DNA of 45,375 nucleotides from Candidatus Edwardsiibacteriota bacterium (GTDB lineage: Bacteria > Edwardsbacteria > AC1 > EtOH8): assembly GCA_020053305.1 (NCBI GenBank), contig JAGVNJ010000069.1, positions 1 to 45,375 on the forward strand, written 5' to 3'. The position numbers and the translations under genes were made by a program. Shown here piece by piece: positions 4,891 through 45,246 of this stretch. The stretch's first letter is position 1. The number at the start of each line of letters is the position of its first letter. Under the pieces are notes generated by a model. That model made no database searches, had not been told where the DNA came from, and worked only from the letters and a program-made list of their open reading frames with translations.

Positions 4891-6345
4891 ATGTCCAGAA
4901 AAATGTTTACCACCCTGATGACAGCGATTGTGTGCTGCCTGGCGGCGGCAAATGCCATGGCCCAGCCAAAATTTGCCGAATTTCCCATCGCCGTGGGAAG
5001 AGACAGTACCTTTAGTATGGGAGCGGTTTATGGCAATACAACAGGCCTGGTAGCCATATTGGGCGATACTCTTAGTCAATACAATGTTACTGCCCAGTTG
5101 GTTTATCCGCCGGATAGTTTAATTGGGAACCGAATCTCGGTGGGCAGAGCCGGTGTTTTTCCCGGAGGAGGAGTAGTAGTTGTATTTGATGGAACCAACT
5201 ATCTTCTGGCTTGGAAAGAAAATACCGGCGATATAAACGGACAATTCATCAATGAAACAGGTAATTTGGTGGGGTCTTATTTTACAATTGCTACAAATAC
5301 ATCAACTGAGGGACCTTGGTCCGGTGGTATGGCTTTTAACGATACTACTTACTTCGGGGTGTTTGTTAAGGCTGACTCCCATCTCTACGGACAGCGAATA
5401 AGCAAAAGTGGGATTTTGCTCGGCGGCCAAGTGCAAATCAGCAATAATCATGCGCGGGATGTTTCCCTCGCTTACGATGGCACCAATTATCTGGTTGCTT
5501 GGGTTGAAGTGATTCCCGATACGGACAAAGATATCTACGGCCAATTTGTAAGTAAAACTGGTTCCCTGGTGGGCGGTAATTTTTTGATCGATGGCGGGCC
5601 AAATTACAGCGACAATCCGACATCCCTGGCCTGCGATGGCACAAGGTACTTGCTTGTCTACCATGAACAGCCCGATAGCAACACCAACTGGACTATAACG
5701 GGGCGTTTCATCACCACTTCGGGAGCAATAGAAGAATCGCTGGTCATCTGTGATTCCACAAAGGCTCCCTTTTTCCCCAGTGTTGCTTTCGATGGTGATC
5801 ACTACCTGACCACCTGGACGCAATCTATCGATATATCTCTCATGGGACAGTTCTGGACCCCGGCGGGTATTCCTGCAGACGTGCCGTTTACAATTTTCAA
5901 TTCAGTGTCAGGCAAGCTGCCTGTTGGCGGATGTGGGTTCGGAGGCGGTTGGTTTTTAGTTGTCGGTTCCCGGTTGGATTTTGCTTTTACAGATGGCGAT
6001 GTTTACGGGGCCTTTATCCCCAAATACACCGGGGTGGCTGGCAACCCGGTTGACCCGGTTAATGTTCCCAGTTTCAAATTAGGGCAGAATGCGCCCAACC
6101 CGTTTAAACAATCAACGATGATCAATTACCAATTGACAAAACCCGGCTTGGTAAATTTAACGGTCTACAACACCGCGGGGCAGTTGGTGAAAACGCTGGT
6201 CAATGACTACCGCCAGCCCGGCAGCTATAACGTTAATTGGAACTGCACAGGAAACGATAGCCGTAAAGTGGCCAATGGGGTATATATGGTAAGAATGGAG
6301 TCTGAAGGCAAAGCAGTGACTAATAAGATGGTGGTAGTGAGGTAA
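4891..6345 (+). CDS. secreted seven-repeat beta-propeller-like protein with T9SS type A sorting domain
   Basis: The function is unknown. A signal peptide occupies about residues 1-24, ending at AMA before QPKFAEF. About seven imperfect repeats of 40-55 residues follow; the clearest cores read FDGTNYLLAWKE and YDGTNYLVAWVE, and each later has a D-x-x-GQF-like strand and a LVG segment. This suggests a seven-bladed beta-propeller. The last 85 or so residues form a FlgD-like/Por secretion domain (NAPNPF, VYNTAGQLVKTL, GVYMVRM, final KMVVVR), so the protein is probably secreted by the T9SS and anchored to or released from the surface. A strong Shine-Dalgarno AAAAAGGAG (4876-4884) sits six bases before ATG 4891. 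Base composition is AT-richer than folE and folP (25 of 60 G+C in 5281-5340). It splits what would otherwise be adjacent folate genes. Confidence 0.85.
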   Translation: MSRKMFTTLMTAIVCCLAAANAMAQPKFAEFPIAVGRDSTFSMGAVYGNTTGLVAILGDTLSQYNVTAQLVYPPDSLIGNRISVGRAGVFPGGGVVVVFDGTNYLLAWKENTGDINGQFINETGNLVGSYFTIATNTSTEGPWSGGMAFNDTTYFGVFVKADSHLYGQRISKSGILLGGQVQISNNHARDVSLAYDGTNYLVAWVEVIPDTDKDIYGQFVSKTGSLVGGNFLIDGGPNYSDNPTSLACDGTRYLLVYHEQPDSNTNWTITGRFITTSGAIEESLVICDSTKAPFFPSVAFDGDHYLTTWTQSIDISLMGQFWTPAGIPADVPFTIFNSVSGKLPVGGCGFGGGWFLVVGSRLDFAFTDGDVYGAFIPKYTGVAGNPVDPVNVPSFKLGQNAPNPFKQSTMINYQLTKPGLVNLTVYNTAGQLVKTLVNDYRQPGSYNVNWNCTGNDSRKVANGVYMVRMESEGKAVTNKMVVVR

Positions 6346-17182: not shown

Positions 17183-19081
17183 ATGGGTAAAAGTTCAATT
17201 GTAAGATACCTTTTGGTCGTGGCGATACTATCGTCAACCGTCGGATTGCTATTTGCCATGCCCCCTTATCAGGGGATCAAGGAACCCGCTTGGGTGGTCA
17301 ACGCCAGAAAGGCTGGGATGGATAGCCCCAAAGACGGACTGATTCAACAATTGAGAGCTAAGGATGTCAATGCTAAAATTAGTGGCAGCCGTTCTTACCC
17401 CGTAGTTTTAGGTTATTTTACCGATACAGCAAGCACCTATACAAAAGATACTTTACAGATCAGGTTATTCAACACCGGAACAAACGTGATGTCGGTAAAT
17501 AACTACTATCGCGACATGTCTTATAACGCTATGAGTTGTTCAGGAAGCGTGGCTTCTTGGGTAAATAGCGGACATGCTTTAGCGTATTTTGGCAATGGAG
17601 CAAATGGATTACCGTATCCCTACACTGACACTATACAAAGTGCATATGGTTTTATAAAACATACATTGGTGGCTTGTGATGCTGCTGTTGATTTCTCAGA
17701 CCCTGCGTATGACCAAAACAGCGATGGATATGTTGATGTTTTATGGGTGGTGCATGCTGGGCTTGGAGGTGAGGAGGGAAGTATAAACGATATTTGGTCA
17801 CATAGCTGGCAATTGACCTCTTGGCGTAGCGGAACCGGGAAGATATTTACCACCAACGATCCCAGACCTGGCTATGCCGGGCAGTATATGAAAATTGACA
17901 AATATATCATTATGCCTGAGAAAACACGATGGGCCAATGGCAGTAGCGATGTGGATCTGATAGGTTGCGGTGTGTTCTGCCACGAATTCGGCCATGCCTT
18001 GGGGCTGCCGGATCTGTATGACATTGGTACACCTACCTATTACGGAGGGCCTGGTGGATCTGGCTTGGGTAACTGGTCGGTGATGGCAGGAGGTTCCTGG
18101 GGAGGCAATGGCAGCACAAATGCCCGTCCAGTAGCGCTAGATGTTTGGTCGCGCCGTTTCCTAGGTTGGGTAAACCCAACCTTGGTAACAAATGATAATC
18201 TTTATATTGTCAATAGCATAATGACCACATCTACAAACAGCAGTTATAAATTGGCAAAATTAGGCGCAGACACTACCAAACAGTACTGGCTAATAGAAAA
18301 CCGTTTTAAAAACGGGGCTGGCCCGATTTCTTCTGTTCAATGGGATTTATTATTATATGGTCAGGGGTTGGCCATCTACCATATTGACACGACCTATACT
18401 TCATCTACGTACTTTAATTCCAATACTGTCAATTGCAATTCCACAGATGATATTAACCAGAACCGTCCCTATGGTGTGGCTATGGAAGAAACAGATATGA
18501 CTACGGTTGGGTACAGTTCTGAAATGTGGAGTTCCGCATTAAATTCCGGGGAAGTTGTTGATGTCTGGAACAGCAACACTCAAACCAGTTTCGACAGCAA
18601 CGGCACAGCCTATCCGGTGACCTATCTCAACGGCACCACACCCACTACAGGCGGGGCGCACACTTTGACCGCCATCCGGGCCATTCCGGCGGCTTCGGCG
18701 GCCATGGCCTGCAGCATGTTCGTAGCCGTTCCCACCGGAGTGGAGGGCCAGCCGGAGGCTGTGTCAGCGCCTTCCGTCTTCGCCCTGCATAATGCCTGGC
18801 CCAACCCGGCCCGGGGGCAGGTCAACTTCAAGTACCAGCTGCCCAGGGCGGCCCGGGTGGACATCAAGGTCTACAATGTGCTGGGCCAGACGGTCAAGAC
18901 CTTCGACCTGGGCCTGCAGGAGCCGGGATATTACTCTTTCAAATGGAGCGATGCCAATGTGGCCGAGGGGGTCTATTTCATCAGACTGTCCGCCACGCCT
19001 AAAGATAATAAAGACGGATCCGCCTTTGGCGGGCAGGCCGGGGATTACCGGGCCACCAGAAAATTCGTGATGGTGCGGTAG
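17183..19081 (+). CDS. secreted M6-family metalloprotease with T9SS type A sorting domain
   Basis: This is an immune-inhibitor-A-like (M6) zinc endopeptidase. The signal peptide covers about residues 1-26. The active-site motif HEFGHALGLPDLYD starts at residue 267, with His267, Glu268 and His271 the expected zinc and catalytic residues, and the family's NWSVMAGG segment follows. From about residue 533 a FlgD-like sorting domain (AWPNPARG, VYNVLGQTVKTF, GVYFIRLS, final KFVMVR) directs T9SS export. Composition changes abruptly: 27 of 60 bases are G or C in 18541-18600 but 39 of 60 in 18601-18660, so the protease body and tail appear to have different histories. A strong promoter and a strong terminator isolate the gene as a single unit. 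Confidence 0.9.
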   Translation: MGKSSIVRYLLVVAILSSTVGLLFAMPPYQGIKEPAWVVNARKAGMDSPKDGLIQQLRAKDVNAKISGSRSYPVVLGYFTDTASTYTKDTLQIRLFNTGTNVMSVNNYYRDMSYNAMSCSGSVASWVNSGHALAYFGNGANGLPYPYTDTIQSAYGFIKHTLVACDAAVDFSDPAYDQNSDGYVDVLWVVHAGLGGEEGSINDIWSHSWQLTSWRSGTGKIFTTNDPRPGYAGQYMKIDKYIIMPEKTRWANGSSDVDLIGCGVFCHEFGHALGLPDLYDIGTPTYYGGPGGSGLGNWSVMAGGSWGGNGSTNARPVALDVWSRRFLGWVNPTLVTNDNLYIVNSIMTTSTNSSYKLAKLGADTTKQYWLIENRFKNGAGPISSVQWDLLLYGQGLAIYHIDTTYTSSTYFNSNTVNCNSTDDINQNRPYGVAMEETDMTTVGYSSEMWSSALNSGEVVDVWNSNTQTSFDSNGTAYPVTYLNGTTPTTGGAHTLTAIRAIPAASAAMACSMFVAVPTGVEGQPEAVSAPSVFALHNAWPNPARGQVNFKYQLPRAARVDIKVYNVLGQTVKTFDLGLQEPGYYSFKWSDANVAEGVYFIRLSATPKDNKDGSAFGGQAGDYRATRKFVMVR

Positions 19082-27720: not shown

Positions 27721-28248
27721 ATGGCAGTCAATCTGGAAAAATTCATCAGAGAAGTGCCGGACTTTCCCAAAAAGGGCATCGGCTTCAAGGACATCACCAC
27801 TCTGCTAAAGGACGCCGAGGGCTTCAAACTGGCGGTGGACCAGTTAACCGAACAATTAAAGGGCGTCAAGATAGACGCCATCGCTGTCATCGAATCCCGG
27901 GGCTTTCCCTTCGGCTCGGCTTTGGCCTACAAGCTGGGCACCGGCCTGCTGCTGGTCCGCAAGCCCGGCAAACTGCCGGCTAAAACCATCCGCCAGGAAT
28001 ACGCCCTGGAATACGGCACCGATGCCCTGGAGATCCACCAGGACGCCATCCAGCCGGGACAGAACGTCCTGATCGTGGACGATCTTTTGGCCACCGGCGG
28101 AACGGCCATGGCCGTGGCTCAATTGGTGGAGAAGCTTAAAGGAAAGGTGGCCGCCATCGCTTTCGTGGTGGAGCTGGATTTCCTGAAAGGCCGGGAGAAG
28201 CTTAAGGAATACAATATCATTTCCCTGGTTCATTATCAAAGCGAGTAA
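27721..28248 (+). CDS. apt: adenine phosphoribosyltransferase
   Basis: Apt salvages adenine to AMP with PRPP. The N-terminal VPDFPKKGIGFKDITTLL is the family hallmark, ESRGFPFGSALAYKLG follows, and the PRPP motif VLIVDDLLATGGTA is at about residues 116-129. At 175 residues the length is standard. CAGGAG lies six bases before ATG 27721, which fixes the start; frames beginning as far upstream as 27529 run through the repeat cluster and are not credible. The next gene starts at the base after the stop. Confidence 0.95.
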   Translation: MAVNLEKFIREVPDFPKKGIGFKDITTLLKDAEGFKLAVDQLTEQLKGVKIDAIAVIESRGFPFGSALAYKLGTGLLLVRKPGKLPAKTIRQEYALEYGTDALEIHQDAIQPGQNVLIVDDLLATGGTAMAVAQLVEKLKGKVAAIAFVVELDFLKGREKLKEYNIISLVHYQSE

Positions 28249-28647
28249 TTGAAGAACCGGCTCACATATATCTTTCTGCTGACGGCCTTTTTAGTGCTGA
28301 TCGGCCTGGGACAGGCCCGGGCCCAGCAGGCCTCACCGGCCGACTCGGCCTCCGGGTATTTCCAGGAATACTTCTCCCGGCTGATGGAGGAGTGGCGCCT
28401 CAACCAGATCCAGGAGCTGGCCAAACAATGGGGCATTTCTGCGATGGGCACCAAGGGCATCAGGATGAATCGCAGTTTCTGGGAGGAGCGGCTGAGCATG
28501 GTGATGTGGCTGCCCCGCAGCAGCCGGGGGCAGAGCCTGGTGCTGGAATACCAGTTGAAAAAGCACTTCCTGATCAGGGGGGAGATCGACCGGCATTCCC
28601 GGAGCGACAACGCCTGGATAGATTTCATCTTCCGGACAGAATATTGA
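28249..28647 (+). CDS. small exported protein resembling the extreme C-terminus of TamB (DUF490)
   Basis: From TTG 28249, directly after the apt stop, the product is 132 residues with a clear signal peptide (RLTYIFLLTAFLVLIGLGQARAQ). After an amphipathic helix (YFQEYFSRLMEEWRLNQIQEL) the last 60 residues alternate as beta-strands: LSMVMWLPRS, QSLVLEYQLKKHFLIRGEID, and the terminal WIDFIFRTEY ending in an aromatic residue. The LEYxL, xLRGE and IDFIFRxEY spacing resembles the final strands of TamB, but the whole upstream TamB body is absent. It may be a mini-TamB, an unrelated outer-membrane-associated protein, or a remnant. It precedes the large barrel protein. Confidence 0.65.
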   Translation: MKNRLTYIFLLTAFLVLIGLGQARAQQASPADSASGYFQEYFSRLMEEWRLNQIQELAKQWGISAMGTKGIRMNRSFWEERLSMVMWLPRSSRGQSLVLEYQLKKHFLIRGEIDRHSRSDNAWIDFIFRTEY

Positions 28648-28723: not shown

Positions 28724-31594
28724 ATGAAACGAATGATCGCTGTATTTTTCTTGGTCGCCTTGGCCATTCCGGCCCTGGCTCAGGACGGCTATTTCGGCAA
28801 GAACAAGGTCAAACACAAGAATTTCCACTGGGAGAAGATCACCACCGAGAATTTCGAGATCTACTTCTACCAGGGAGGGCGGGAGCTGGCCCAGGTGGCG
28901 GCCCGGATGGCCGAGAACGCCGGGCGGAAGATATCCAAGGACATGGGGCACACCCTGTACAACAAGATACCAATCGTGCTGTACACCTCCCACAATGATT
29001 TCGCCCAGACCAACATCGCCCAGGATATCATAGACGAAGGGGTGGGTGGCTTCACCACCCTGCTCAAGAACCGGGTGGTGGTGCCCTACACCGGCTCCTA
29101 TGCCGACCTGGACCATGTGATCACCCATGAGCTGGTCCACGCCTTCATGTTCGATCTGTTCTTCGGGAAATCCATGGAATCCATCTTCTCCCAGCAGAGC
29201 CTGATGCAGCTGCCGCTGTGGTTCGTGGAGGGGATGGCCGAGTACGAATCGCGGGGCTGGGATCCCGAGACCGAGATGATAATCAAGGACCTGGCGCTGA
29301 ACCAGCGGCTGATCCCCATCCAGGAGCTGGACGGTTACGGCGGTAGTTATTTCGTCTACAAAGAGGGCCAGGCCATCATCAAGTTCATAGTCGAGAGGTA
29401 CGGACAGCAGAAGATCGGCGAGATGTTCCACATGCTGAAATCCAGCCGCAGCATGGACAAGACCTGCGAAAAACTTCTGGGCAGCAACGTCGAAAAGCTG
29501 TCCGAGCTGTGGCTCAAGGACATGCATAAAAAGTACTGGCCCTATCTGGCGGCCAAGAAGGAGGTCCCGGACTTTGCCAAACAGTTGACCGAGCATGACG
29601 TCTTCAAGACCGGCTCCTATTTCAACCTGGCCCCCTGTTTCTCGCCCCAGGGCGACAAGATCGCCTACATCTCCGATCAGGACGGCCGGGCCGGGATATA
29701 CATCATCTCCAGCATCGACGGCCACCGCATCAAGCATCTGGTCAAGGGCGAGCAGAACGCCCAGTTCGAGGCCATGCACCTGGCCTGGTTCCGGGGAGGA
29801 CTGACCTGGTCCCCGGACGGCAAGAAGCTGGCCTTTGCCGCCAAGTCCACCACCGGCGACAAGCTGTATGTGGTCCGGGTTGACAACGGGAAGGTCCTTA
29901 AAAAACTGGAGTTCCCGATGGACGGGATTTATTATCCCAGCTGGTCGCCGGCCTCCGACAAGATCGCCTTCTGCGGGCTCAAGGACGGCCAGTCCGACCT
30001 ATATGTGGCGGACATCGCCGACAGCCACAACGTGGTCTACAGCCTGGAGCGGCTGACCGACGATCTGTACGACGACCGGGAGCCGGAGTGGTCCCCGGAC
30101 GGCCGGGAGCTGGTTTTCGTCTCGGATCGCCCGGTCTCGGAAAACCAAGCCTACTTCGACACCCTGCATTTCGGCCGGTACCGCCTGTTCACCATGGATC
30201 CGGTCTCCGGCAGCATCGGCTGCCTGACCCCGGAGGAGGCCATGGTCTCCCGTCCCAGCTGGTCCCCCAAAGGGATAGCCTATACCGCCATCCGCCAGGG
30301 GGTGAGCAACATCTTTGTCATCTCCGGGGACAGCACCCTGCAAGTTACCGATGCCATCACCGGCTGCCTGCAGTCCAAATGGTCCCGGGACGGCAGCAAG
30401 CTGGTCTTCATCGGGTATCACAAGACCGGCTGGAACATCTTCACCATTAAAAATCCGTTAGACAAGCTTCCGGATATCGACAGCCAGAAGGTCTTCTTCT
30501 GGGCCTCGGCCGACACCGGCTGGTACCAGCCCAGGAAATTCGAGCAGCCTCTGGCCGACAGCAACCGATATAAACCCGGCAAGGCCCAAACCAAATTCTC
30601 GGTGGACTGGGCCCAGGGATCATTCAACTACAATACCTTGAGCGGGCTGGGCGGGCAGGCCGAGATCGTGGTCAGCGACGTGATGGGCAACCATCAGTTC
30701 TTCTGGCAGTCGGACATGGTCATCAACCTGCAGAATTCTGATTACCAGCTGACCTATTTCTACCGCCCCCGGCGCTGGGATTACGGGGTCAGCTATTACC
30801 AGTACCATAATTACTATCTGGCCTCCAACAACGACATCATCATCGAAAAGATCAACGGGGTCCAGGGAATACTCTCCTATCCCTTCAATCGCTATCAGCG
30901 GATCGATTTCATGGGAAGCTGGAGCCACTATCAGGAGGAATACTATTATTACTCGGCGCCCGACGCCAGTCTGAACGTGATCATACCGGCGGTGTCCCTG
31001 GTGCACGACAACGTTCAGTGGTCATATTACGGCCCCCGGGAGGGCCGGAGGGCCATGGCTGCGGTGGAGGGCAGCAGCCGGGCCCTGGGCAGCGACCTGA
31101 ATTTCGTCAACTATTTCACCGACATCCGGCAGTACTGGCCGCTTACCAAAAGGTCGGGATTCGCCCTGCGGCTGATGGGCGGGCTTTCCCTGGGATCCGA
31201 CGCCCAGTACTTCGAGCTGGGAGGGCCCTACACCTTAAGGGCCTATGATTACAACGAACTGGACGGCACCCGGATGGCCCTGTGTAACCTGGAGCTGCGG
31301 GTGCCCTTTGTGGACCGGATCCAGATGGCCATCCCGCCCATATCGTTCTACGGCATCCGGGGGGCGCTGTTCTTCGACGTCGGGGCCGCCTGGTCCGACA
31401 GCAGACAGTTTCAGCTTTTTCAGCGCGATCCCTATGCCATGTTGAAAATGAAGGACCTTAACGGGAGCCTGGGCACCGGGATCAGGATGATAATATCGCC
31501 CTTCATGATGAAACTGGATTTCTCCTGGAAGACGGACCTGTCCTCGATCTCCGACAAGGCCAGGATATCCTTCGTGCTGGGCAGCGAGTACTGA
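28724..31594 (+). CDS. single-chain gluzincin peptidase / PD40 propeller / Omp85-like barrel protein
   Basis: The 956-residue product has a signal peptide (1-18, ending ALAQ). Residues about 30-290 form a Peptidase_MA-like gluzincin domain with HELVH (135-139) and the downstream glutamate in WFVEGMAEY (Glu169). Residues about 300-620 carry PD40/TolB-like repeats (SPQGDKIAYISD, SPDGKKLAFAA, SPDGRELVFVSD). The last 330 residues are beta-rich, with GGPYTLRAYDY (Arg839) in the position and context of the Omp85 L6 (V/L)RG(Y/F) motif, and end in FVLGSEY. It is probably an outer-membrane protein with a periplasmic or surface peptidase/propeller region. I know of no characterised example. GTG 28667 is an alternative start. 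The rsmD start overlaps by one base. Confidence 0.8.
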   Translation: MKRMIAVFFLVALAIPALAQDGYFGKNKVKHKNFHWEKITTENFEIYFYQGGRELAQVAARMAENAGRKISKDMGHTLYNKIPIVLYTSHNDFAQTNIAQDIIDEGVGGFTTLLKNRVVVPYTGSYADLDHVITHELVHAFMFDLFFGKSMESIFSQQSLMQLPLWFVEGMAEYESRGWDPETEMIIKDLALNQRLIPIQELDGYGGSYFVYKEGQAIIKFIVERYGQQKIGEMFHMLKSSRSMDKTCEKLLGSNVEKLSELWLKDMHKKYWPYLAAKKEVPDFAKQLTEHDVFKTGSYFNLAPCFSPQGDKIAYISDQDGRAGIYIISSIDGHRIKHLVKGEQNAQFEAMHLAWFRGGLTWSPDGKKLAFAAKSTTGDKLYVVRVDNGKVLKKLEFPMDGIYYPSWSPASDKIAFCGLKDGQSDLYVADIADSHNVVYSLERLTDDLYDDREPEWSPDGRELVFVSDRPVSENQAYFDTLHFGRYRLFTMDPVSGSIGCLTPEEAMVSRPSWSPKGIAYTAIRQGVSNIFVISGDSTLQVTDAITGCLQSKWSRDGSKLVFIGYHKTGWNIFTIKNPLDKLPDIDSQKVFFWASADTGWYQPRKFEQPLADSNRYKPGKAQTKFSVDWAQGSFNYNTLSGLGGQAEIVVSDVMGNHQFFWQSDMVINLQNSDYQLTYFYRPRRWDYGVSYYQYHNYYLASNNDIIIEKINGVQGILSYPFNRYQRIDFMGSWSHYQEEYYYYSAPDASLNVIIPAVSLVHDNVQWSYYGPREGRRAMAAVEGSSRALGSDLNFVNYFTDIRQYWPLTKRSGFALRLMGGLSLGSDAQYFELGGPYTLRAYDYNELDGTRMALCNLELRVPFVDRIQMAIPPISFYGIRGALFFDVGAAWSDSRQFQLFQRDPYAMLKMKDLNGSLGTGIRMIISPFMMKLDFSWKTDLSSISDKARISFVLGSEY

Positions 31595-40669: not shown

Positions 40670-43456
40670 TTGAAATTTAGCAGAAACATCGTATCGCTGA
40701 TATTTATTCTGGCAGTTTGGAATTCTTTTGCGCTTGCCGGGTTGTTGCCGTTGAACGGGGACTGGCATTACCTGCAATCCCCGCATTTCAAGGTCTATTT
40801 CCAGCCCGGCCAGCAACAGTATGCCCAAAAGGTAGCCAATAAGGCCGAGGATGTCCATGTTGATTTGGTGGGGTTCCTGAAATGGCTTCCCTACGGGCAT
40901 ACCAATATCATAGTGGCCGATCATACCGACATCGTCAACGATTATGCCTCGCCCCTTCCTAAAAGGACCATAATAATCTATCCCGCCCAGAATGCCGGGG
41001 ACCGGAACAATTTCGGCGACTGGCTGGACGAAGTATTGGTGCATGAATATACCCACATTCTTCAGATGGACATGCAGAGCGGCATCCCTGCCGGATTCAA
41101 TTCCCTATTCGGCAGGATCTTTCTACCCAATATCTTTCAGCCCCTGAACCAGATCGAGGGGCTGGCGGTATATTCCGAGACCCGGTATACCGGTTTCGGC
41201 CGCAACCGCTCGGCCCTTACAGAGGGGATGCTGCGCTCCGCGGTGGACGAAAGGAAATGGGTGCCCCTGGACCGGGTCGGGGTAGCCTCGCCCTGCTGGC
41301 CCCGCGATGCTTCCTACATCTACGGCGGCAAGTTCTACGAATACTTGGCGGATAAATACGGCCCCAAAAAACTGGCCCTCTACCAGCGGAAGCACAGCAA
41401 CCTGGTGATTCCCTTTATGCAGAACATGCCGGCCAAGAGCGTCTTCGGTAAAAGCTTTTCCGATCTGTGGACCCAATGGAGGAGCGATGCCTTTAAAAGA
41501 TATTCGGCCCAGGCGGAGTCCCTAAAAGGCCAGGGTCTCACCGATTTCCGGCATTTGACCGATGATGGTTTTGACAAAACTTTCTTATCCTCCTCTCCGG
41601 ATGGCAAGTCTCTGGCCTATGCCGATCGTAACAGCCACCGGAGGTCAAGTCTGAAATTATATGATATCGGATCGGGCAAATACCGGACGATTGACCAGGG
41701 GATATTTCTGGGCTCCATGCAGTTCAGTTCCGACGGGAGATATTTGGCCTACGGAAAGATGGAATATTCCGGATTCGGAGAAAACTTATACGGAGATATT
41801 TATATTTATGATACGGTAAACCGTAAAACCGAGAGAATCACCCGCTGTTTGCGGGCCAGGGATCCGGCCTTCTCCCGGGACGGAAAGATGTTGTATTTTG
41901 TAGCTTCTAGTATGGATCAGAATGCTCTGGCGGTCCTGGATCTGAAAACAAAGCAGGTGGAATCCCTGACGGAGTTAGATGAGTCGCAATTGTTCAGCCA
42001 TCCGTCGGTGTCTCCCAATGGAGAAAAGATCGCCCTTGCGGTGTGGCAGGATGGGGGCTATCAGGACATCTATCTTTACGACATCGCCAAAAAGGAATGG
42101 CGGGCACTGATGGCCGATAAAGCCCAGGATATAACCCCGGCCTGGTCCGGCGATGGTAAATATTTGTATTTTGCCTCTGACCGTTCCGGGGTGTGGAATA
42201 TATTTAAATATGACCTTCAGACTGCGGCCATGTCCAGGGTAACCAATGTCATTGGAGGGGCTTTCAATCCAGCGGTTTGTGATGCTAATGTTTATTTCCT
42301 GAGTCTCAGTTCAAGGGGATTCGATATAGTGGTGACAGAAATATCCGATTCAATCTGTTTTACAAATACAGCATACATTGATACAACGTCCTTTGTCGAA
42401 AAAGCGACAGATAGCGTCAATTATCCTTCTGTGAAATACCGGCCTTTTAAGACCCTGCTCCCGTTCTTTTGGTTTCCCATGGCCTCAATTGACGAAAAGG
42501 GAGGGGCGCTGGGAGTTGCCCTCTTGGGCGCGGACGACCTGATGGCCAAATCTTATACTGCCGTGTTCGTCCCCAGCTTCAACTCGCAACGGTTTTATTA
42601 TGATATTGCCTACTCCGATGCCGACCGCAGCCTGAACTATAATTTTCGAATTTCGGACAATACAACTGCCGAGGATGTCGGTTCGGGGAATACGGATGTT
42701 GCCTATTATCAAAGGCAACAGAGCCAGTCGCTGCAGTTATATTTACCCCTAACCCGTTCGGGTCACGTGATATCCGCGGCGGCGGCCTATTGCCACACTA
42801 ATTACACCGGGTTGAATAATGAGATCTTTGCGATCAACCCTTATTGGAACGGCCATCTGGCGCGCCTTCAGATGAACCTGGGCTTCAGCAACGCCCAGAA
42901 ATACGGCTTTTCCATCAGCCCGGAGAGGGGCCGGAGCGTGTCCTTGGAATCGAGATTTTATCGAAAATATCTGGGAGGCGAGCTGAATCAGTCCTGGCAG
43001 GGACTTTCCTGGACCGAATATCTGCCCCTGCCTTTTCGCCATCAGATGCTGATGGGCAAGATAATGGCCGGGGTCTGGGGCCAGGGGGTCTATGTCAACG
43101 AGGATATTCCTGAAATGCGGCCCAGGGGCACAACGGAGGATATTGACGGAAGATATCGAACTTTGTTAACGGCCGAATATCGCTTTCCGTTGTTATATGT
43201 GGAACGGGGATTTTCCACCTGGCCGTTCTATCTCAAGAACGTCAGCGGGGCATTGCTGATGGATGTCGGAACGGCATCTAATAATTACAAGCATTTGAGC
43301 TATAATGATTCCCACCGGTGCCTGGGCGCGGAAATAACTTCCCAGTGGCTTTTCTCCTATGCGGCGCCGTTCAAGATCATCCTGGGGTTCTATCACCTTC
43401 CGGAGGAAAAAGAATCCCATATAGCGTTAAAGATGGGCACGGATATCTTATGGTAG
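40670..43456 (+). CDS. second gluzincin peptidase / propeller / barrel protein (paralogue of 28724-31594)
   Basis: From TTG 40670 the product is 928 residues with a clean signal peptide (FSRNIVSLIFILAVWNSFAL, mature from about 24). A gluzincin domain carries HEYTH (125-129) and the third ligand Glu163 in QIEGLAVYSE. PD40-type repeats occupy about residues 300-560 (SPDGKSLAYADRN, SSDGRYLAYGK, SRDGKMLYFVAS, SPNGEKIALAV, SGDGKYLYFASD). The C-terminal 330 residues are beta-rich and end DILW; an MRPRGTTE segment (Arg819-Gly820) may correspond to the Omp85 L6 RG. Sequence is strongly diverged from the first protein, but domain order is the same. No ATG gives the signal peptide. It overlaps the Omp85 gene by seven bases. 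Confidence 0.78.
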   Translation: MKFSRNIVSLIFILAVWNSFALAGLLPLNGDWHYLQSPHFKVYFQPGQQQYAQKVANKAEDVHVDLVGFLKWLPYGHTNIIVADHTDIVNDYASPLPKRTIIIYPAQNAGDRNNFGDWLDEVLVHEYTHILQMDMQSGIPAGFNSLFGRIFLPNIFQPLNQIEGLAVYSETRYTGFGRNRSALTEGMLRSAVDERKWVPLDRVGVASPCWPRDASYIYGGKFYEYLADKYGPKKLALYQRKHSNLVIPFMQNMPAKSVFGKSFSDLWTQWRSDAFKRYSAQAESLKGQGLTDFRHLTDDGFDKTFLSSSPDGKSLAYADRNSHRRSSLKLYDIGSGKYRTIDQGIFLGSMQFSSDGRYLAYGKMEYSGFGENLYGDIYIYDTVNRKTERITRCLRARDPAFSRDGKMLYFVASSMDQNALAVLDLKTKQVESLTELDESQLFSHPSVSPNGEKIALAVWQDGGYQDIYLYDIAKKEWRALMADKAQDITPAWSGDGKYLYFASDRSGVWNIFKYDLQTAAMSRVTNVIGGAFNPAVCDANVYFLSLSSRGFDIVVTEISDSICFTNTAYIDTTSFVEKATDSVNYPSVKYRPFKTLLPFFWFPMASIDEKGGALGVALLGADDLMAKSYTAVFVPSFNSQRFYYDIAYSDADRSLNYNFRISDNTTAEDVGSGNTDVAYYQRQQSQSLQLYLPLTRSGHVISAAAAYCHTNYTGLNNEIFAINPYWNGHLARLQMNLGFSNAQKYGFSISPERGRSVSLESRFYRKYLGGELNQSWQGLSWTEYLPLPFRHQMLMGKIMAGVWGQGVYVNEDIPEMRPRGTTEDIDGRYRTLLTAEYRFPLLYVERGFSTWPFYLKNVSGALLMDVGTASNNYKHLSYNDSHRCLGAEITSQWLFSYAAPFKIILGFYHLPEEKESHIALKMGTDILW

Positions 43457-45246
43457 TCCGCAGATCGTACATAATTCTTGCCCTCTCGGTTCTGTCGGCT
43501 TGTTTGTCCTCGGCGGCGGCGGGAAAAGCCAGGACCGCCATAGAAGGGAATGTCAGCTTCCCTGCGCGCCAGCTGATAAAGGTGGCCAGCCTTAAAATGC
43601 CGGATAACAGGATGGATAGCGATAGCCTGGAGCAGTCAATTTACCGGTTACGGTCCTTCTACCGGCGGAACGGTTTTGTCGATGCCGAAGTAGAATACAT
43701 GATAGACAGCATCAGCCAGCCGGGTACTACCGGAATAAAACTGGTGATTACCGAGGGCACCAGATATTATGTGGACCGGATAGATTTTAGCGGGAGCCGG
43801 GAACTACCCGCCGATGTGTTGAACCGGGCCATAGCCAACAAGGTCCGAAGGCCCCTGAATGTTGAGGATCTGGGGCAGGACGATTTCAGTTTGATGCTGT
43901 TGTATGCCGATCACGGATATATCTATGCCGAGGTGGATCATGACCTGGAGTTCCAAAACGGACATAAGGCGATCATCACCTACCAAGTCAAAGAAGGCCC
44001 CCAGGTAAACATTTCCCGCATTGCTTTGACCGGCAATGTCCATGTGCAGGAGAAGTATATCCTGAACACTATCCGGATGTCCCCGGGCGATGTATTCAGC
44101 CGGAGCCGGTTGATAAAAAGCCAATATCTGCTTCAATCCAGCGATCTGTTCCGGATGGTTGCCGTTTCCCCAGGGGAGATCGACTCCCTGAGCAACGATA
44201 TCGCGGTGGACATCCGGCTGGTGGAAAAGCCCCGACGGTTGTTCGAGACCAGCATTGGCTACGGCAGCGGCGATGCGGTAAGGCTGATGTCCAAATGGGC
44301 CCATCGCAATCTATTCGGGCTGGGCCGCAGAATTGAACACAACGGACTGGTTTCCTTTCAGACCAAGTTTCCCCTCAAAATGACCAGGGGCCGTTCCCAG
44401 ATCAGTTATTCCGACCCATATTTTTATTTATTTAATAAACCGGCCCGGGGGGAGGTTTATTATGATGATTTCAGACCCAGCTATACCGATTACCGCTTGG
44501 AGACGGTGGGCTTTAATTTTTCTGTAAGCACACCGATATCAAATGCTTTTAATATTGACTATCGCTGGAAACAGGAATGGCTGAAACTTTCGCCCACTTG
44601 GCAGCTTACCAAGTATACCTCCGATACCTTAAGCTATAAGGGCAGAAGGTCTCTGGCCGTTGTCTCCAGCTACGAGAACCTGGATGACCCGGTAAATCCA
44701 CGAAAGGGATTAAGCAGCGATCTGGAACTGGAGTACACCGGAGGCATCATGGGCGGGGCGGAGACTTTCCAGAGGGTTGTCAATAACTGGGCCTACTATT
44801 TCAAAGCTCCTTCGCACGGATTGTCTTTTGCCGGGCGTTTCCGGTACGGGATCATCGGAGACTGGTCGCAAAGGTCCACCATTCCCAGCTATGAAATGTT
44901 CTTTCTGGGAGGCCCGTCAACGGTAAGAGGGTATGCCCTCAGTTCGATCGGCCCGGTGGACGACAAGGGCCGGGTGACCGGCGGAAGGATCATGACGTTG
45001 ATCAATCTTCAGTCGGTTGTCAATCTGGGCAAAAACTGGGGCTTAGCCGCATTTATTGACGGTGGCATGCTCAGCAACAGGACCTTTGAAAAACAATCCT
45101 TTGGCGATATGGTCTCCAGCCCCGGTTTGGGAATAAGATATGCGTTGCCCTTCGGCGCCGGACGGCTGGATTTCGCCGCTCCCGGCACCCTGATGGGGCA
45201 GATAAAATACTGGAGGTGGATGGTGGCCTGGGGTGAGCCGTTTTAA
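43450..45246 (+). CDS. Omp85-family protein with three POTRA domains (TamA-like)
   Basis: From ATG 43450 the product is 598 residues. The signal peptide is followed by three POTRA-like units, at about residues 27-105, 106-187 and 188-265 (for example NISRIALTGNVHVQEKYIL). The C-terminal barrel shows the Omp85 hallmark FLGGPSTVRGYALSS, with VRGY at 492-495, and the typical GIRYALPFGAGRLDFA near the end. Three POTRAs match TamA rather than the five of BamA. It probably assembles or exports outer-membrane proteins. An LSAC sequence in the signal peptide could be a lipobox, but Omp85 proteins are not usually lipoproteins. A longer frame from 43318 overlaps the upstream gene and is not credible. 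Confidence 0.88.
   Translation: MVVRRSYIILALSVLSACLSSAAAGKARTAIEGNVSFPARQLIKVASLKMPDNRMDSDSLEQSIYRLRSFYRRNGFVDAEVEYMIDSISQPGTTGIKLVITEGTRYYVDRIDFSGSRELPADVLNRAIANKVRRPLNVEDLGQDDFSLMLLYADHGYIYAEVDHDLEFQNGHKAIITYQVKEGPQVNISRIALTGNVHVQEKYILNTIRMSPGDVFSRSRLIKSQYLLQSSDLFRMVAVSPGEIDSLSNDIAVDIRLVEKPRRLFETSIGYGSGDAVRLMSKWAHRNLFGLGRRIEHNGLVSFQTKFPLKMTRGRSQISYSDPYFYLFNKPARGEVYYDDFRPSYTDYRLETVGFNFSVSTPISNAFNIDYRWKQEWLKLSPTWQLTKYTSDTLSYKGRRSLAVVSSYENLDDPVNPRKGLSSDLELEYTGGIMGGAETFQRVVNNWAYYFKAPSHGLSFAGRFRYGIIGDWSQRSTIPSYEMFFLGGPSTVRGYALSSIGPVDDKGRVTGGRIMTLINLQSVVNLGKNWGLAAFIDGGMLSNRTFEKQSFGDMVSSPGLGIRYALPFGAGRLDFAAPGTLMGQIKYWRWMVAWGEPF

Follow-up and report, generated by a model that had tools for sequence, protein, structure and literature searches.

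A predicted peptidase–propeller–Omp85 fusion protein beside a stand-alone TamB-like tail in Candidatus Edwardsiibacteriota

Gene content of the locus

Within the window, by which we mean the whole 45,375-nucleotide stretch of Candidatus Edwardsiibacteriota DNA analysed here (from a genome of 2.6 Mb), one gene encodes a 956-aa protein that is near certain, judging from its profile matches, to consist of a signal peptide, a Peptidase_MA domain, a TolB-like propeller and an Omp85 barrel, without POTRA domains (Table 1). A first-pass annotation made from the letters had placed this gene, hereafter the fusion, at the same coordinates, which proved right and give an ATG start, and with a signal peptide. 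In the HMM search that it had proposed, Peptidase_MA, PD40 and Omp85 all exceeded the Pfam gathering cut-offs, as did DPPIV_N (1.6e-8). POTRA, which the annotation had held to be absent, gave no Pfam family match in the fusion at E up to 1, and only about 20–50 residues separate the propeller from the barrel; the absence is concluded from both the missing match and the linker, which is too short. Neither a Peptidase_M48 domain nor TPR, the features of BepA, was matched by Pfam, and no lipobox Cys is present at the signal peptide. In the FGKNK signature, G25, N27 and K28 are invariant in an alignment of 25 family members, whose identity goes down to 31–40%. An AlphaFold prediction of the full-length fusion from the single sequence gave a low-confidence model (pLDDT 33).

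Table 1. Features of the fusion locus and of related genes in the window
Feature	Position	Strand	Evidence
apt, adenine phosphoribosyltransferase; synteny marker outside the system	27721..28248	+	Pribosyltran PF00156 5.6e-14
132-aa secreted protein, assigned here as a stand-alone TamB C-terminal tail	28249..28647	+	hhalign against TamB tails; Pfam TamB 0.062
TamB-tail homologous segment of the 132-aa protein, residues 80-132	28486..28644	+	hhalign aligned columns
Peptidase-propeller-Omp85 fusion protein	28724..31594	+	ATG start, 956 aa
Signal peptide, residues 1-19, MKRMIAVFFLVALAIPALA (followed by QDGYFG)	28724..28780	+	read from sequence; N-terminus of orthologues hydrophobic
Peptidase_MA (gluzincin) domain, residues 21-290	28784..29593	+	PF13485 3.3e-11; 24/25 family members
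FGKNK family signature, directly behind the signal peptide	28793..28807	+	conserved across fusion family
HELVH; putative zinc ligands His135/His139, catalytic Glu136	29126..29140	+	invariant in 25-member alignment; 60/60 other-lineage members
Glu169, putative third zinc ligand within WFxEGxAEY	29228..29230	+	invariant in 25-member alignment
TolB-like PD40 beta-propeller, about residues 291-600	29594..30523	+	PD40 1.5e-25; TolB structures 2e-26
Omp85 beta-barrel, residues 622-956, last residue aromatic Tyr	30587..31591	+	PF01103 4.5e-15; profile matches to solved barrels
LRAY, counterpart of the Omp85 L6 (R)G(F/Y) motif	31235..31246	+	family alignment, profile alignment
Second, divergent fusion, same architecture, 928 aa	40670..43456	+	hhalign against 28724-31594 family profile
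POTRA-bearing Omp85, BamA/TamA-like	43450..45246	+	PF01103 1.5e-39, POTRA 3.6e-27

The Peptidase_MA_2 match spans residues 64–264 (positions 3–196 of the 201 in the profile), and HExxH with a downstream Glu ligand, the hallmark of gluzincins, is present. The gluzincin site HELVH...EG that had been picked out in the first pass was borne out by this match and by the invariance of all four residues concerned. In an AlphaFold model of the N-domain from a four-row alignment, of low confidence (pLDDT 52), a single helix holds HELVH, and E169 lies close to where a later helix starts, an arrangement known from gluzincins. With this model, Foldseek ranked M1 aminopeptidases and M9 collagenases highest, at weak scores (E ≥ 0.0075), a result that fits a gluzincin without proving the geometry.

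The PD40 repeats, likewise seen in the first pass, were recognized by Pfam in five stretches. A single-sequence search found TolB propellers to be the nearest solved structures, and TolB was also the best match of the 25-member family profile in the PDB; the NCBIfam TolB score of the fusion lies far under the equivalog cut-off. For the barrel, the Omp85 match covers residues 673–955 (profile 21–324 of 325). With the barrel-only profile, the Omp85 barrel in PDB 9ccg (338–675) was aligned from one end to the other at 5e-17; the 25-member full-family profile matches the same structure at 6e-14, and parts of the BamA and TamA structures are also matched by the barrel profile. The C-terminal part is homologous to Omp85 barrels over its whole length, and a closed 16-stranded barrel is predicted from this profile alignment. 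LRAYDY, which the annotation had set in the context of the L6 loop, indeed aligns at that position, where most relatives have LRGY, their GG-x-LRGY loop being the counterpart of the L6 motif. Arg839 is nearly invariant in the family (at least 90% conserved in the 25-member alignment), and a strict pattern finds the R[GA] form in 45 of the 60 members taken from outside the phylum. Within the phylum, two of four genera have LHGY, with His for Arg.

The second fusion in the window has HEYTH...E163, a PD40 propeller and a barrel with an RG motif, and its profile aligns with the family profile of the first over 829 columns (hhalign, 100%, 4e-63). It is found in 10/10 genomes of the phylum, and in nine of the ten it is followed by the POTRA-bearing Omp85 gene, which starts here at 43450 and overlaps the 3' end and stop of the second fusion; the product of the POTRA-bearing gene scores 2e-79 with TIGR03303, under the equivalog cut-off. 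At 17183–19081 the window also encodes a secreted, immune-inhibitor-A-like protease with an HEFGHALGLPD motif, whose C-terminal segment resembles a sorting or FlgD-like domain and is similar to the C-terminus of 4891–6345. At least six proteins of the genome have a Pfam Omp85 match, and a patatin-Omp85 (PlpD-like) protein (L039) is encoded on contig C44.

Conservation and spread of the family

The fusion gene exists in all ten genomes of the phylum, at 56–95% identity. A chance or artefactual ORF was ruled out by this conservation and by the wide recurrence of the architecture. H135, E136, H139, W166, E169 and G170 are among the invariant residues of these orthologues, and their C-terminal residues are aromatic, a feature of most outer-membrane proteins. 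A profile of the orthologues found matches, at 1e-30 or better, in 125 of 386 genomes (108 of 334 when only good-quality genomes are counted). Outside the phylum, the families with matches number about 100; the matches are frequently full-length and often come in two or three copies; no relatives were found in the viral contigs searched. In the 25-member alignment, PD40 was recognized in all members, Peptidase_MA_2 in 24 and Omp85 in 23. HExxH, the third-ligand motif EGxAE and the N-terminal [FY]GxNK are present in all 60 members taken from outside the phylum, and the last residue is aromatic in 58 of them. This invariance of the active site argues for an active enzyme. In short, the fusion belongs to an ancient family that is widely distributed and has remained practically unstudied. 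A 634-aa secreted peptidase–propeller homologue without a barrel, annotated as 'basic secretory protein-like protein', is encoded on plasmid pSR116 of Salinibacter ruber (L173, 81325–83226), a cultured host.

Mean conservation in the 25-member alignment was 0.57 for the peptidase, 0.48 for the propeller and 0.51 for the barrel, and the invariant columns numbered 16, 3 and 26, respectively. Together these values suggest that selection holds the active site and the barrel alike. They tell against an unlikely explanation, namely that a general periplasmic zinc peptidase, serving turnover or maturation, uses a repurposed and functionally silent Omp85 barrel as a mere anchor: conservation of the barrel comes close to that of the peptidase, and no other part has as many invariant columns. 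The recurrent linkage to TamB, BamB-like and POTRA-Omp85 genes described below also speaks against a mere anchor. The points in its favour are the reuse of the Omp85 scaffold in PlpD (PMC11116518), the L6 motif relaxed in places to LHGY or LRAY, the existence of the barrel-less homologue and the absence of assembly-factor neighbours at most loci.

The upstream gene and neighbours at related loci

Directly upstream of the fusion lies the gene for a 132-aa protein with a TTG start, a signal-like N-terminal segment and the C-terminus IFRTEY. It is found between apt and the fusion in all four genera of the phylum. The order including apt, whose start was placed at MAVNLEKF after a 175-aa orthologue, is kept at L010, L011, L012, L015, L016 and L019. 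The Pfam TamB match of the 132-aa protein is below threshold and ends at the last position of the model, and three orthologues independently match the same model end. In hhalign, the 132-aa family aligned with TamB tails at a probability of 95.4 (P = 1.9e-8), whereas the controls (reversed tails, 20 column-shuffled profiles and seven segments taken from the fusion family) all stayed at 0.6 or less. Because the direct match is below threshold, the homology rests on this controlled profile–profile test. The large AsmA-like beta-taco body with its inner-membrane anchor is not present in the 132-aa protein, which is too small for a whole TamB; we identify it as a stand-alone TamB tail. Contig C14 of the same genome carries a TamB gene with a conventional POTRA-Omp85 gene a short way upstream, so that the fusion is not the only TAM of this genome.

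The genes next to the fusion were surveyed at 60 loci from lineages outside the phylum. A full-length, Pfam-confirmed TamB gene lies directly upstream at five of them, in four families (L096, L097, L106, L115 and L131; the contig end truncates the TamB gene of L096 and that of L106). Fewer than 0.2 such neighbours are expected by chance in 60 loci, if about 3000 genes are taken to include one to three for TamB. The order at L097 (the same locus as L171) is dxr, rseP, POTRA-Omp85, TamB, fusion and uvrD, and dxr and rseP also lie upstream of the fusion at L107, L111 and L120. The dxr–rseP neighbourhood is the site of bamA in proteobacteria. At six loci in five families a BamB-like PQQ propeller gene lies directly downstream (L116, L117, L149, L150, L152 and L153, all of one clade and some with a lipobox); these genes scored best against BamB models, under their equivalog cut-offs. 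The uvrD gene is directly downstream of the fusion at L096, L097, L111, L120, L131 and L133, a clade that includes the TamB-linked L096, L097 and L131, and this adjacency is probably just synteny. All five TamB-linked loci fall within one neighbourhood of the tree and are thus not independent events, and about 46 of the 60 loci showed no TamB, BamB-like or rseP neighbours. Since the linkage is clade-specific, a general role in assembly is an extrapolation.

The fusion locus resembles the TamA–TamB module in having an Omp85 gene beside a TamB gene or TamB tail, and differs from it in that the fusion lacks POTRA and that, in the phylum, only the tail is encoded alongside. A TAM-like device for lipid flow, in which TamB or the tail docks on the barrel and passes phospholipid while the peptidase regulates or trims TamB, would suit both the adjoining TamB genes and the proposal that TamB is a phospholipid conduit (PMC11014939). 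We consider it very unlikely: the partner in the phylum is a tail only, without a groove domain for lipid.

Proposed role of the fusion

The combination of a propeller with an Omp85 barrel was already known, since a 'WD40-Omp85' subfamily of the Omp85/TpsB superfamily was catalogued in 2014 by Heinz and Lithgow, who likened it to a BamA–BamB fusion (PMC4104836). As described there, its members resemble the fusion in having a TolB-like propeller instead of POTRAs, followed by the barrel; unlike the fusion, they appear in the main text without a peptidase domain, TamB/BamB linkage or function, and the word 'peptidase' is absent from that main text. Compared by description only, the fusion would fit this subfamily by its propeller and barrel. 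So, the first-pass statement that no characterised example exists held for function in the literature searched; as to architecture it did not, the subfamily having been named in 2014 and the three-part form being widespread, with profile matches in about one-third of the sampled genomes. On peptidase MA, PD40 or WD40 in combination with Omp85, the literature searched yielded nothing beyond the 2014 survey and general reviews; in it we found no paper on the peptidase part or function of propeller–Omp85 proteins, and no discussion of a TamB tail or of TamB/BamB linkage. What is new here is the neighbours: the TamB tail and the linkage to TamB, BamB-like and POTRA-Omp85 genes. PF00149 we take to be the calcineurin-like metallophosphoesterase family. 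It defines the 'Metallo' Omp85 subfamily, which is called a metalloprotease in the part of the 2014 survey that treats it (PMC4104836).

N-terminal domains of Omp85 proteins face the periplasm. From PlpD and other Omp85 proteins we infer, by analogy, that the peptidase and propeller are periplasmic. PlpD (patatin-Omp85, type Vd) also carries an enzyme domain N-terminal to an Omp85 barrel, although that domain has a lipase fold whereas the fusion has a zinc peptidase and a propeller, with no recognisable POTRA. The patatin domain is exclusively periplasmic, and the claim of its export was overturned (PMC11116518). This precedent weighs against a distinctly unlikely alternative, in which the barrel would export the peptidase and propeller to the surface, like an autotransporter or two-partner system, for the degradation of external proteins or the processing of surface proteins. 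TpsB-type Omp85 relatives do export proteins, the Salinibacter homologue is a free secreted form, and the phylum encodes other secreted proteases (17183–19081); but the N-domains of the fusion precede a 16-strand-type barrel, which would make them periplasmic by default, and its neighbours are assembly factors rather than secretion partners.

We prefer, at a probability of roughly 0.45, the reading that the fusion is a periplasmic zinc protease, anchored by its Omp85 barrel, that takes part in assembling the outer membrane or in its quality control and is engaged by the TamB tail. By analogy, it is best read as, in effect, a BepA-like enzyme and a TolB/BamB-like adaptor joined to a barrel. BepA of E. 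coli is both a protease and an assembly factor on BAM, and promotes or degrades outer-membrane proteins (PMC8423444). Like the fusion, it is an HExxH protease, periplasmic and tied to the assembly or degradation of outer-membrane proteins; unlike the fusion, which has Peptidase_MA_2, it belongs to M48 and is a separate BAM-associated protein, so that the likeness is one of analogy without family-level homology. The propeller is closest to TolB in the PDB, but it is attached to a barrel and lacks the N-terminal domain of TolB, and whereas BamB is a separate propeller partner of BamA, here the propeller is built into the barrel protein.

In the preferred reading, the barrel would anchor the peptidase–propeller module in the outer membrane, and the propeller would receive or present partner proteins or outer-membrane clients that are still unfolded. 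Clients that stall or assemble wrongly would be cut at the gluzincin site, much as BepA, a protease of its own, cuts them on BAM. The lateral edge of the barrel may offer a docking strand to the TamB C-terminal tail, supplied in the phylum by the small separate upstream protein and in related lineages by full-length TamB; the TamB C-terminus is known to mimic outer-membrane strands (PMC4494059). Proteolysis, the clients and the contact between tail and barrel are what we infer from the parts. The domains, the invariant active site, the barrel homology, the TamB-tail homology and the gene linkage all speak for a role in assembly. The 'client-handling outer-membrane machine' of the first pass gains support from the upstream tail and from the genes for full TamB, BamB-like propellers and POTRA-Omp85 that lie near other members of the family. 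Counting against such a role, TamB binds POTRA domains, which the fusion lacks (the DUF490 domain of TamB binds the BamA POTRAs and BamB; PMC11361582), the L6 Arg is replaced by His in two of the four genera, about 46 of the 60 loci are without assembly neighbours, and a conventional TAM pair exists on contig C14.

A broader proposal, which we put forward tentatively and with the odds somewhat against it, is that these fusions form an unrecognised, widespread branch of outer-membrane assembly with a zinc protease and a TolB-like propeller standing in for the POTRAs, and that in one phylum TamB has shrunk to a separate secreted tail, the dedicated partner or plug of the fusion. The stand-alone tail would provide a minimal system in which to probe the conserved C-terminus of TamB without the long, inner-membrane-anchored body. 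At least one such fusion exists in about one-third of the genomes sampled, often with two or three per genome. If the fusion is indeed a built-in quality-control protease, many bacteria beyond the classical models may treat their outer-membrane proteins in a manner unlike that of E. coli.
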